DNA of 64,000 nt from positions 62,001-126,000 of the forward strand of contig JAJEGM010000032.1 in assembly GCA_022819825.1 (NCBI GenBank), read 5' to 3'. The number at the start of each line of letters is the position of its first letter. Position 1 is the first letter of the stretch. This document shows positions 9,675 through 13,923 of this stretch, in pieces. Under the pieces are notes generated by a model that was given only the letters and a program-made list of their open reading frames with translations, did no database searches and had not been told where the DNA came from. This DNA comes from Acidimicrobiia bacterium. GTDB taxonomy: Bacteria; Actinomycetota; Acidimicrobiia; Acidimicrobiales; Bin134. A program made the position numbers and the translations under genes.

Positions 9675-11138
9675 TCAACCGATCACGAACGGGTCGCGGG
9701 TGGCGCCGGTTAGCTCTATCCAGACGGTTTTGGTTTGGAGGAAGCCGTCGAGGGCTTCGAGGCCGTTGTCCCGCCCGTAGCCTGATTGTTTGAAGCCGCC
9801 GAAGGGGGCCATGTAGCTCACGTTGCGGTAGGTGTTGATCCACACCGTGCCCACTCGGAGTGCTCTCGACACTCGGTGGGCCCGGCGGATGTCGTTGGTC
9901 CAGATGCCCGCGGCCAGCCCGTAGTCGCTGTCGTTGGCCAGCTTCACCACTTCGTCCTCGTCTTCGAAGTCGAGCACGGCCAGCACGGGGCCGAACACTT
10001 CCTCGCGGACGATGGTGGACTGGTTGGTCACCCCGGTGATCACGGTGGGGCGTACGAACCGCCCGCCGAGGTCGGGGTCGACCACACCGCCGGCGGCAAT
10101 GGTGGCGCCCTCTGAGCGGGCTTGGGCGATCATGGCCAGGATCCGGTCTCGCTGGGCGTCAGACGCCGACGGCCCCATTTCGGTGGCAGTATCGGCGGGA
10201 TCGCCTAGCACCAGTTCGTTGGCCCGGGCTACCACCCGTCCGACCACCTCATCAGCAATGTCTCGGTGGATGTAGGCCCTAGACCCTGCAATGCAGGTCT
10301 GTCCGCTGGCCGCGAAGATCCCGGCCAAGAGCCCATTGGTCACTGCCTCGGGATCGGCGTCGGCGAAGATGATCTGGGGTGACTTGCCGCCCAGTTCCAG
10401 CACCGTGGGGGTTAGGTTGTCGGCCGCGGCCCGGGCCACGTGCTTGGCGGTGGCCCCGCCGCCGGTGAAGGTGATCTTGTCTATGTCGGGATGGGAGGTA
10501 ATGGCTGCTCCCACCTTGGCTCCGCCGGTCACCACGTTGATGACGCCGGGGGGGAACCCGGCCTCGGCGGTTCGCTCGGCCAGCATCAGCGCGGTCACCG
10601 GGGTGATGTCCGATGGCTTGACAACAGCGGTACACCCGGCGGCCAGCAGCGGGGCGAGCTTCCAGGTGAGAAGGGCCAATGGCGAGTTCCACGGGATGAT
10701 GGCTCCCACCACCCCGATGGGCTCGCGCTCGGTGTACACCAAGAAGTTGGGCGACGGGCTGGGAAGCTGCTCGCCGCCGATCTTGTCGGCCATTCCGGCG
10801 AAGAAGTCGTAGTAGCCCTGCAAGCCTTTGGCCTGGGCTGACGTCTCGCGGATGATCTTGCCGTTGTCCCGGGTCTCGACCTGGCCCAACAGCTCGGCAT
10901 CTCGGGTCAGAAGCTCACCGAGGCGGCGCATCAACTGGGCTCGCTCAGTGGCGGCCATGGTGGCCCAGGGGCCGTCGGTGAACGCCCGCCGAGCCGCCCG
11001 GACGGCGTCGTCCACCGCAGCGGGGTCGTCGGCCACCTCGGCCCAGGGCTCGCCAGAAAACGGGTTGGTCGTGGCCATGCGCCTGCCGTTGGGAGGAGGA
11101 GCGAACCCCCCGTCAATCCAGTTGTCGTAGATGTCCAT
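9675..11138 (-). CDS. Aldehyde dehydrogenase family protein
   Basis: A 487-residue NAD(P)-dependent aldehyde dehydrogenase, full length for the family. It carries the catalytic-Glu motif LELGGKSPQ, the nucleophile motif GQTCIAG, the coenzyme loop FTGGGATAK and the C-terminal PFGGFKQSGYGRDNG. GGAGGA sits six bases before the ATG at 11138; a longer reading upstream of it looks spurious. It is divergent from the PuuD-like amidotransferase at 11219, a pairing that recalls gamma-glutamylated putrescine breakdown (PuuC with PuuD), but no gamma-glutamylputrescine synthetase is in the window. Betaine-aldehyde or semialdehyde substrates are equally possible. Confidence 0.92.
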   Translation of the reverse strand: MDIYDNWIDGGFAPPPNGRRMATTNPFSGEPWAEVADDPAAVDDAVRAARRAFTDGPWATMAATERAQLMRRLGELLTRDAELLGQVETRDNGKIIRETSAQAKGLQGYYDFFAGMADKIGGEQLPSPSPNFLVYTEREPIGVVGAIIPWNSPLALLTWKLAPLLAAGCTAVVKPSDITPVTALMLAERTAEAGFPPGVINVVTGGAKVGAAITSHPDIDKITFTGGGATAKHVARAAADNLTPTVLELGGKSPQIIFADADPEAVTNGLLAGIFAASGQTCIAGSRAYIHRDIADEVVGRVVARANELVLGDPADTATEMGPSASDAQRDRILAMIAQARSEGATIAAGGVVDPDLGGRFVRPTVITGVTNQSTIVREEVFGPVLAVLDFEDEDEVVKLANDSDYGLAAGIWTNDIRRAHRVSRALRVGTVWINTYRNVSYMAPFGGFKQSGYGRDNGLEALDGFLQTKTVWIELTGATRDPFVIG

Positions 11139-11218: not shown

Positions 11219-11926
11219 GTGACCACAAAACTCCCATTGATAGGACTGCCCGGCCGGCGCAAGCAGGCATCGGAGATCAGCGGCTTTCCCGAAGCGATGG
11301 CCAAGAGCGATGTCGATCTGTACATGGCCGATTACGCCCGCGGCGTCATTGAAGCCGGCGGCATCCCGGTTCACATCCCTATAGACGTCGACCCCACAGC
11401 GGTGGGAGAGCGGCTCGATGGGATCGTCCTCTCCGGGGGAACCGACGTCGACCCGATCCTCTATGGGGCCGATCCCGATCCCGAGCTGTTGCCCCTCGAG
11501 CCCGAGCGCGACGATCTAGAGCTGGCGTTGCTCTCTGCCGCCCTCGATGCCGAAGTCCCGGTGCTTGGCATCTGCCGGGGCATCCAAGTGCTCAACGTCC
11601 ACCAGGGCGGCACGCTGCACCAGCACGTGCCCGAACACGGCCGCTTCGACTTGCCCATCGATTCCACCATCCACCAGGTGAGTTTTGCCGAGGGCTCCAC
11701 ACTGCATGAGCTGTACGGCCCCTCAGCCCAGGTGAACAGCCTCCATCACCAAACGGTGGCCGATCTGGGCCATGATCTCACCGTCACCGCCCGAGCCGAC
11801 GACGGCACCATCGAGGGCGTGGAGATGGGCGATCACGTGGTCGCCGTCCAATGGCACCCCGAGATGATGCCCACCCGCCCCACCGACCCCATCTTCGGGT
11901 GGCTGGTTGAGCGGGCCTCCCGCTAG
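11219..11926 (+). CDS. Class I glutamine amidotransferase / gamma-glutamyl-GABA hydrolase-like (peptidase C26)
   Basis: A 235-residue protein of the PuuD family, which cleaves gamma-glutamyl amides such as gamma-glutamyl-GABA. It shows the family order GRRKQ near the N-terminus, DGIVLSGGTDVDPILYG, the nucleophile elbow GICRGIQVLN, HHQTV and the QWHPE of the Cys-His-Glu triad. The GTG at 11219 is taken as start; a TTG at 11201 is the alternative and neither has a strong ribosome site. It diverges from an aldehyde dehydrogenase, consistent with a polyamine-related role. Its TAG overlaps the stop of the convergent methyltransferase within the palindrome CTAG. Confidence 0.87.
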   Translation: MTTKLPLIGLPGRRKQASEISGFPEAMAKSDVDLYMADYARGVIEAGGIPVHIPIDVDPTAVGERLDGIVLSGGTDVDPILYGADPDPELLPLEPERDDLELALLSAALDAEVPVLGICRGIQVLNVHQGGTLHQHVPEHGRFDLPIDSTIHQVSFAEGSTLHELYGPSAQVNSLHHQTVADLGHDLTVTARADDGTIEGVEMGDHVVAVQWHPEMMPTRPTDPIFGWLVERASR

Positions 11927-12948
11927 CCGGGCTTGCGGGCGAGGAAGAAGTACGCCGGGGTGAAGATGCCGAGCTTGCCTGCTTCGGCCAGGCCCTCGGC
12001 GCCTATGTTCAGGGTTTCCGACACGCGAACTGCTCCTTGCGGCACGACGCGAAGCGCTTCGAGCACCCGTAGCGACTGGGTGGTCATCCAGCGACCTATG
12101 GCCGACGCGCGCAGTCCCGTCAGAGAGAATCCCGGGCTTACCAGGGGTTGATACCAGGGGATTGACGGGCCGGCTGGAATCGCGAGGTCCCTTGTTTCCA
12201 ATATCTCGAATCCCACCGACTTGAGCGCATTGTCAACGGTTGGTAGGTCGTCCAGGTCAGTCAGCCCGGTTCCCAACAGGAGGTTGTTCTTGATCTTGAG
12301 GTGGAGGGGATTCTCAGCGTCGAAGCGATCAGTTAGACACCATTCGTGAGCGGCGAAGCACTGGCCGGGCTTCAGCAATCGGAAGGCCTCGCCATAGATG
12401 CTCTCTTTGTCGGGGGCGCAGCAGGTGGCCTCAATGCCGTAGACCGCGTCGAACGACTCGTCAGGGGCATCGACGTTCAAGAAGTCGCAGTGCAGGAAAT
12501 CGGCCAGATGGGTGAGCTTCGCCTCTTCCGCCAGCTTCCGGGCGCGTTCCAATTGGTAGGCGTTGCTGTTCACGCCGACGACCTTGGCCCCGGAGAAACG
12601 GGCGATCTCCAATAGCGGGCCGCCGATGCCGCAACCGAGGTCGGCCACGACCATCCCAGGCCGCAACTCGAGCTTGTGGGCCAAGAAGTGCTCGTGGCGT
12701 CTGATGGAAGCCTCCAAGCTCTCCCCGGCCACTCGGGGGGCAAAGTGAAAAGACCTGCCCCATCCGTACTCGTAGAAGTCCGTGGCCACGTCGTAATAGA
12801 GGTTGTTGAACTCTTCGTGGTCGTCTTCCCCGCTGTCTGAATTGCTGTTCTTGAGCTGCCTGAATCGGCGCTCGTATTCGCGAATAGTCGGGTCGACGGC
12901 TTCCGTGCTTCCTGGCTTCTTCAAAATGTTGGCGAGCTTGTCAGACAT
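11923..12948 (-). CDS. Sterol C-24 methyltransferase-like (ERG6/SMT family) SAM methyltransferase
   Basis: A 341-residue protein that follows eukaryotic ERG6/SMT almost end to end. It keeps the SMT-specific segment YEYGWGRSFHF (59-69), GES..ASI.RHEH.LA (75-90), SAM motif I DLGCGIGGP (103-111), the EIARF and VGVNSNAYQ stretch (114-132), IEATCCAP (172-179), LLKPG (191-195), EWCLTD (202-207), IPWYQPL (263-269) and the tail FTPAYFFLARKP (329-340). In SMT enzymes these residues bind SAM and the sterol and transfer methyl to C-24 of the sterol side chain. The generic bacterial homologues (tocopherol or UbiE types) lack YEYGWG and the C-terminal sterol methyltransferase region. GGGG precedes the ATG. 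Bacterial members are rare, mostly from uncultured lineages. Whether the substrate is self-made or taken up is unknown: no squalene cyclase or epoxidase is in this window. Confidence 0.88.
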   Translation of the reverse strand: MSDKLANILKKPGSTEAVDPTIREYERRFRQLKNSNSDSGEDDHEEFNNLYYDVATDFYEYGWGRSFHFAPRVAGESLEASIRRHEHFLAHKLELRPGMVVADLGCGIGGPLLEIARFSGAKVVGVNSNAYQLERARKLAEEAKLTHLADFLHCDFLNVDAPDESFDAVYGIEATCCAPDKESIYGEAFRLLKPGQCFAAHEWCLTDRFDAENPLHLKIKNNLLLGTGLTDLDDLPTVDNALKSVGFEILETRDLAIPAGPSIPWYQPLVSPGFSLTGLRASAIGRWMTTQSLRVLEALRVVPQGAVRVSETLNIGAEGLAEAGKLGIFTPAYFFLARKPG

Positions 12949-13466: not shown

Positions 13467-13503
13467 TGGTCCAATTCTAACCACTAGTGGTCCTATCCGG
13501 ACC
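13461..13503. promoter_or_regulatory. Palindrome-rich operator-like region of the small HTH module
   Basis: Within 43 bp lie the 12-bp perfect palindrome ACCACTAGTGGT (13480-13491), the inverted pair GGTCC/GGACC (13489-13493, 13499-13503) and the repeated words AACCACTGGTCC (13461-13472) and AACCACTAGTGGTCC (13479-13493). The block lies directly before the preferred start of the 53-residue gene and inside the last codons of the SnoaL-like gene. This is the layout of an autoregulatory operator; the HTH protein is the obvious candidate binder. Confidence 0.5.
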
Positions 13504-13923
13504 AAATTTGAAGCCGGTGAAGTCGCCGGACATGTCGGGCGGGCCGTAGTAGATGCGGTGGAGGGCGCGGCGGGCGAACTTCCACTCGCCTTCTTCCTGG
13601 CAGTATTCGTCGTCGTAGTAGCCGTACATGGTCATGGGGCCTTCGTCGGGGCGCTTGAAGTGCTCGATCACGTACCAGCGCCCCGTGCCGGTACCGGCAT
13701 TTTCATCAAGATCGGCCCAGCCGTTGAGGTAGGCGTGGATCACTCCATCGAGACGGGCCAGCATCCCCTTCCAAGACGTTGCGATCTCATCCCGACCGCT
13801 CTTGGTCATCGGGCCCATCTCCCAAACTGCATCGGTGGCCCAGGTGGCCGCCCACTGATCGGCGTCGAAACGGCACACCGCGTCGGAATAACGGGCTAAC
13901 AGGGTTCTGATCTCTTCTGACAT
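13477..13923 (-). CDS. SnoaL-like (NTF2-fold) protein
   Basis: A 148-residue NTF2-fold protein of the SnoaL/limonene-epoxide hydrolase/ketosteroid isomerase superfamily. It shows the family beginning EIRTLLARYSDAVCRFDADQWAATWATDAVWEMG and the later strand pattern GRWYVIEHF and YYDDEYCQEEGEWKFARR. GGAAGGGC lies just before the ATG at 13923. Its last 10 codons overlap the palindromes that seem to control the next small operon. It diverges from the VOC gene at 14054 over 130 bp. The fold is clear, but the reaction (isomerase, dehydratase, hydrolase or a non-enzymatic role) is not. Confidence 0.82.
   Translation of the reverse strand: MSEEIRTLLARYSDAVCRFDADQWAATWATDAVWEMGPMTKSGRDEIATSWKGMLARLDGVIHAYLNGWADLDENAGTGTGRWYVIEHFKRPDEGPMTMYGYYDDEYCQEEGEWKFARRALHRIYYGPPDMSGDFTGFKFGPDRTTSG

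Follow-up and report, generated by a model that had tools for sequence, protein, structure and literature searches.

A gene of the sterol C-24 methyltransferase (SMT) family is carried by the 64,000-nucleotide stretch of Acidimicrobiia DNA that was analysed (the window), and its product probably methylates C-24 of sterols acquired from a sponge host or from the food of the sponge, with reduction by sterol reductases, in a bacterium without sterol synthesis. In the mechanism proposed from sequence comparisons, the enzyme would act like Erg6 or SMT1: with SAM as methyl donor, it would methylate a delta-24 sterol at its side-chain double bond, after which proton loss would yield a 24-methyl(ene) sterol. 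The sterol itself would be taken up from the sponge or the sponge's food, and these imported sterols are probably also the substrates of two tandem ERG4/ERG24 membrane reductases that the genome encodes. Many sterols of adult sponges have no delta-24 bond, and a suitable substrate, such as a desmosterol-like intermediate, must therefore be present. A scavenged sterol as substrate agrees with the in vitro activity of an SMT from a Chlamydiae MAG that contains no other sterol genes (Brown et al., 2023; PMC10070321).

The SMT gene and its surroundings

Table 1. Features of the SMT locus, with positions in the window.
Feature	Position	Strand	Details and basis
Sterol C-24 methyltransferase-family gene (SMT)	11923..12948	-	341 aa, ATG start; ORF, Pfam, GTDB relatives, tree
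Region I, sterol-binding aromatic segment YEYGWGRSFHF	12742..12774	-	residues 59-69; Region I definition of PMC5711494
SAM-binding motif DLGCGIGGP	12616..12642	-	residues 103-111; alignment of bacterial SMT rows
IEATC segment	12421..12435	-	residues 172-176; alignment
Pfam Sterol_MT_C domain	11929..12120	-	residues 277-340; Pfam search
Peptidase_C26 / gamma-glutamyl hydrolase-like gene	11297..11926	+	convergent with SMT, 4-base overlap; Pfam and synteny
SnoaL-like (ketosteroid-isomerase fold family) gene	13477..13923	-	upstream of SMT, same strand; Pfam and synteny

The SMT gene is read from position 12948 down to 11923, a plus-strand reading of the same interval being ruled out by six stops. 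The open reading frame and the motifs listed for it in the preliminary description were all recovered, in the order YEYGWGRSFHF, GESLEASIRRHEH, DLGCGIGGP, IEATCCAP, EWCLTD, IPWYQPL and FTPAYFFLARKPG. A class I methyltransferase domain precedes the Sterol_MT_C domain, which matches its Pfam model with 78.7 bits (E 3.6e-22, cut-off 21.7), a match that excludes chance. Region I corresponds to Tyr81-Phe91 of Erg6 (PMC5711494) and differs from the yeast segment at one position, and the residues aligned with Erg6 Y81, E82, H90, E98, D125, C128, E195 and D276 are kept, both comparisons having been made with a provisional yeast sequence. Across 54 aligned bacterial SMTs, H68, E76, D103 and E173 (numbering of the window gene) are invariant, as are G105, G107 and G110 of the SAM motif, in which C106, G109 and P111 are nearly so. 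Identity amounts to 49.5% with Arabidopsis SMT1, 42% with yeast Erg6 and 37% with SMT2, values obtained with provisional eukaryotic sequences and to be taken as a lead, not as a database result. In the NCBIfam search no model claims the protein. Its predicted structure (pLDDT 87.5) matches solved SAM C- and O-methyltransferases, for example TleD, MitM and geranyl diphosphate C-methyltransferase, and because no true SMT is found among these solved matches, the structure search says little on the substrate. Judged by its sequence, the protein is a SAM-dependent enzyme of the sterol-C24-methyltransferase family and belongs to a bacterium.

At this site in the genus, the convergent peptidase C26 gene is a conserved flank that marks one side, and the SnoaL-like gene occupies the other, upstream of the SMT, in most members, at a distance of 34 bp in several relatives. 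The SnoaL-like gene has a GC content as low as that of the SMT (60.9%). It was rejected as an obligatory partner, being kept beside the SMT pseudogene of genome G004 (see below) and adjoining SMTs only within the genus, and the relationship of the two genes is one of association only. Syntenic SMTs with 85-98% identity are present in separately assembled relatives, and a homolog stands at the equivalent site of the single-contig chromosome G006. Contamination, or a eukaryotic contig, was rejected on the basis of the bacterial neighbours, the synteny across many MAGs and this same-site homolog. The earlier statement that the gene is not a contaminant is thus upheld by synteny, and the ordinary composition offered in its support applies only roughly, as the GC content of 60.6% is the next-to-lowest among the window's 47 longer genes (mean 65.0, s.d. 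2.0).

Related SMTs across bacterial phyla

The view that SMTs are nearly all eukaryotic and rare in bacteria, on which the preliminary description had drawn, is outdated, given published bacterial examples (PMC10070321; PMC9531527) and the 331 relatives encoded in GTDB genomes, found in one scan of 84,980 genomes. The best 80 of these 331 are 43-98% identical to the window SMT and come from MAGs of Acidimicrobiia, Chloroflexota, Alphaproteobacteria, Gammaproteobacteria, Gemmatimonadota, Nitrospinota, Nitrospirota, Myxococcota and others. Among these 80, the SMT of the closest jk18x MAG is 98% identical; the jk18x MAGs, which are among the nearest relatives, derive from Caribbean Ircinia sponges, and the MAG sets with the prefixes SB06, RHO, COS, IRC, APA and p16 are presumably of sponge origin too. 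The present genome may likewise be sponge-associated.

A tree of 104 rows was built by a quick method, with three provisional eukaryotic rows, four distant methyltransferases as outgroup and sponge SMTs left out. The window SMT falls within a clade of 51 bacterial rows (SH-aLRT 99), among SMTs and apart from the genome's other methyltransferases, in keeping with the family assignment first proposed for it. Within this clade it groups with other Acidimicrobiia, with Chloroflexota interleaved, a pattern that speaks for transfer between phyla. The three eukaryotic rows lie outside the clade, and recent transfer from a eukaryote is unsupported by this tree, in which sponge SMTs are not among the rows. 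Seven genomes of the clade possess squalene epoxidase as well as oxidosqualene cyclase, which ties the clade to sterols.

When 50 SMT-bearing bacterial genomes from several phyla were sampled, oxidosqualene-cyclase scores split into two groups: 18 genomes scored ∼390-910 bits, and the others reached at most 290 bits or gave no match. Squalene epoxidase was detected in exactly these 18 genomes (p = 6e-14), often beside the cyclase, and the epoxidase search therefore has power, also in Acidimicrobiia, as represented by MAG G060. The other 32 genomes of the sample had neither gene. ERG4/ERG24 reductases were found in 26 of the 32 and not in the remaining six, so that the coupling of SMT and reductase is not universal.

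Other genes were also observed close to SMT genes. L142:5783-7801 (minus strand) encodes a fusion of a GPP34 (Golgi phosphoprotein 3) domain with a cytochrome P450, which has homologs in ten further loci from Nitrospirota, Nitrospinota, Alpha- and Gammaproteobacteria and Chloroflexota. A KshA_C-type Rieske oxygenase is encoded at L096:2840-3871 (minus strand) and in seven further loci, also where the genome has neither epoxidase nor oxidosqualene cyclase.

Sterol reductases and triterpenoid genes of the genus

SMT matches are present in 14 of the 22 genomes of the genus, 13 of them intact and one, that of G004, a pseudogene; at 1e-20 no match was obtained in 38 genomes from other families of the order. 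Some genus genomes have a tandem arrangement in which the second SMT is 66% identical, and in some there is a third type at another location, ∼40% identical, with MVFGWGESLHF as Region I. A separate SMT type at this level of identity, with Region I MVFGWGESLHF or MQFGWNESLHF, forms a clade of its own that includes loci L052, L058, L059, L060, L138, L142 and others, and possibly has a different substrate or performs a later methylation. In G004 the N- and C-terminal parts of the SMT persist at the same site, mutually out of frame (L069, near 9900-10270), and the gene is a pseudogene formed through internal deletion.

The two tandem ERG4/ERG24-type reductases of the present genome lie on a contig other than that of the SMT (G000:C41:14298-16517), where their neighbours are core bacterial genes, including groEL, tsaD and alr as identified by sequence. 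They score 125.6 and 131.7 bits against PF01222 (curated cut-off 27), and the solved structure most similar to both is the delta-14 sterol reductase 4quv (E 5e-30 and 2e-32). Such reductases are found in all 13 genus genomes with an intact SMT and in two of the nine others, namely G008 (a 68%-complete draft) and G014; they are missing from G004, as is an intact SMT. The SMT and the reductases are thus inherited, that is kept or lost, jointly within the genus. The co-occurrence gives a Fisher p of 0.002, with G004 counted as SMT-positive and relatedness uncorrected, a count that overstates independence because members of a genus are related.

The preliminary description had proposed a search of the genome for squalene epoxidase and oxidosqualene cyclase, and neither was found. 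A single absence could reflect a gap in this draft genome (91.5% complete), and weight rests on the genus-wide result: epoxidase (PF08491) is absent from all 22 genus genomes, including the single-contig G006 and G014. Triterpene cyclases number about one per genome in the genus. The only one of the present genome is a squalene-hopene cyclase, with 750 bits against a cut-off of 431 and a DLDDTAE motif, which reaches 264 bits with the oxidosqualene-cyclase model, where the cut-off is 851; the range in three genus genomes is 257-264 bits. Two SQS_PSY-family synthases are encoded close to it, and a hopene cyclase is present in all genus genomes except one 68%-complete draft, with or without an SMT. 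From this gene content, the organism should make hopanoids and not sterols. Among the possibilities left open in the preliminary description, sterols that are made, sterols that are scavenged or a sterol-like lipid, scavenging is therefore favoured, synthesis is opposed by the missing epoxidase and oxidosqualene cyclase, and another lipid is less likely.

The part of the window from 43378 to 64000 holds a catabolic cluster that may be directed at steroid or terpenoid side chains. It includes a P450 resembling P450terp and CYP125, a Rieske oxygenase, a FadD3-type ligase and a CoA ligase for which the best NCBIfam model is the steroid-22-oyl-CoA synthetase CasI (598 bits, below the cut-off of 900). 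The best solved relatives of its fused double acyl-CoA dehydrogenase include the steroid side-chain enzymes Tcur3483 and 4x28. Full steroid catabolism was rejected despite this suggestive cluster, since HsaC, the extradiol dioxygenase of 9,10-seco steroid degradation, is over its cut-off in none of the 22 genus genomes (57 bits of 450 in the present one).

Sterol source and comparison with known systems

The two SQS_PSY-family synthases near the squalene-hopene cyclase would also suit an enzyme that methylates a triterpene of the cell's own, squalene or a hopanoid precursor, as do TMT-1 to TMT-3 of Botryococcus, SMT relatives that act on non-sterol triterpenes including squalene (PMC3533583). 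This is unlikely, as the sterol-binding domains of the TMTs are variant (PMC3533583) whereas Region I is canonical here, and the hopene cyclase occurs in the genus regardless of the SMT, which instead tracks the sterol reductases. Furthermore, no match to any triterpene cyclase was obtained in 23 of the sampled SMT-bearing genomes, and squalene synthase is missing from seven of the 30 epoxidase- and cyclase-less genomes searched. All seven are Acidimicrobiia that have kept the SMT together with two to four reductase matches each; with no squalene synthase, epoxidase or cyclase, a cell-made triterpene substrate is excluded in these genomes to the extent that the drafts are complete. It is also improbable that the SMT is intact but idle or otherwise employed, for example with a quinone, a small molecule or a different isoprenoid as substrate, given that the sterol-specific Region I and Sterol_MT_C have been kept, that the protein is 85-98% conserved in relatives and that its clade is consistently linked to sterol genes, even though the folds nearest to it (TleD, MitM and geranyl diphosphate C-methyltransferase) do not by themselves fix a substrate and four of 24 bacterial SMT homologs yielded nothing from either of the two sterols supplied (PMC10070321). 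De novo synthesis, in which the SMT would act late and the genes not found would lie in assembly gaps, might be suggested by the draft state of the assembly, by the ERG24-CYP51-LSS steroid clusters of Ircinia Acidimicrobiia MAGs (PMC9531527) and by Acidimicrobiia genome G060, which has a related SMT with both epoxidase and oxidosqualene cyclase, but is very unlikely in view of the epoxidase count of zero across the genus, its single-contig genomes included, and of the cyclase count of about one per genome, with scores far below the oxidosqualene-cyclase cut-off in the three genus genomes to which that model was applied.

If the SMT acts on scavenged sterols, as preferred here, a broader proposal can be made tentatively, with somewhat less than even confidence: a widespread guild of sponge symbionts from several phyla may make no sterols but import those of the sponge, use one to three SMTs to methylate them at C-24 and reduce the product, and some of the unusual side-chain-alkylated sponge sterols and their fossil steranes may be made jointly by host and bacteria. 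In the fossil record, steranes with a methylated side chain are assigned to particular eukaryotes, and 24-isopropylcholestane is taken as the oldest sign of animal life. The finding bears on the true makers of the side-chain-methylated sterols used as such early-animal markers: should many symbionts that make no sterols alkylate those of their hosts, a sterol may owe its side chain to one organism and its ring system to another, and its source could be assigned neither from SMT copy number nor from a missing bacterial sterol pathway. The SMT and the ERG4/ERG24 reductases, kept or lost together, constitute a small gene set with which host-sterol use by symbionts can be tested.

Bacterial SMTs are already known (PMC10070321), as are SMT and steroid clusters in Ircinia symbionts, Acidimicrobiia among them (PMC9531527). 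In the open-access literature no description was found of SMT and reductases jointly kept or lost in bacteria without epoxidase and oxidosqualene cyclase, an earlier description being possible. Yeast Erg6 and Arabidopsis SMT1 share with the window SMT the domain order, the Region I to IV motifs and 42-50% identity (from provisional sequences), but occupy a separate branch of the tree, and the window's genome has no pathway of sterol synthesis. Kelly et al. (2022) found SMT and ERG24-type genes to be enriched in Ircinia symbiont MAGs, with clusters also in Acidimicrobiia (PMC9531527). The habitat is the same, and the jk18x MAGs of that study are those among the nearest relatives here; however, the genes were read there as sterol biosynthesis, whereas the present genus has neither epoxidase nor oxidosqualene cyclase, and its SMT and reductases stand outside any cluster. 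Activity of bacterial SMT-family enzymes in vitro was shown by Brown et al. (2023) for SMTs from sponge symbionts, a Sandaracinus MAG and the Chlamydiae MAG, several of which methylate desmosterol or 24-methylenecholesterol (PMC10070321); a Sandaracinus NAT131 locus (L128) is among the rows of the present tree. The main text of that study does not name Actinobacteria, and it stresses de novo pathways, with only the Chlamydiae MAG discussed as lacking other sterol genes, whereas here the absence of sterol synthesis is the rule of a genus.
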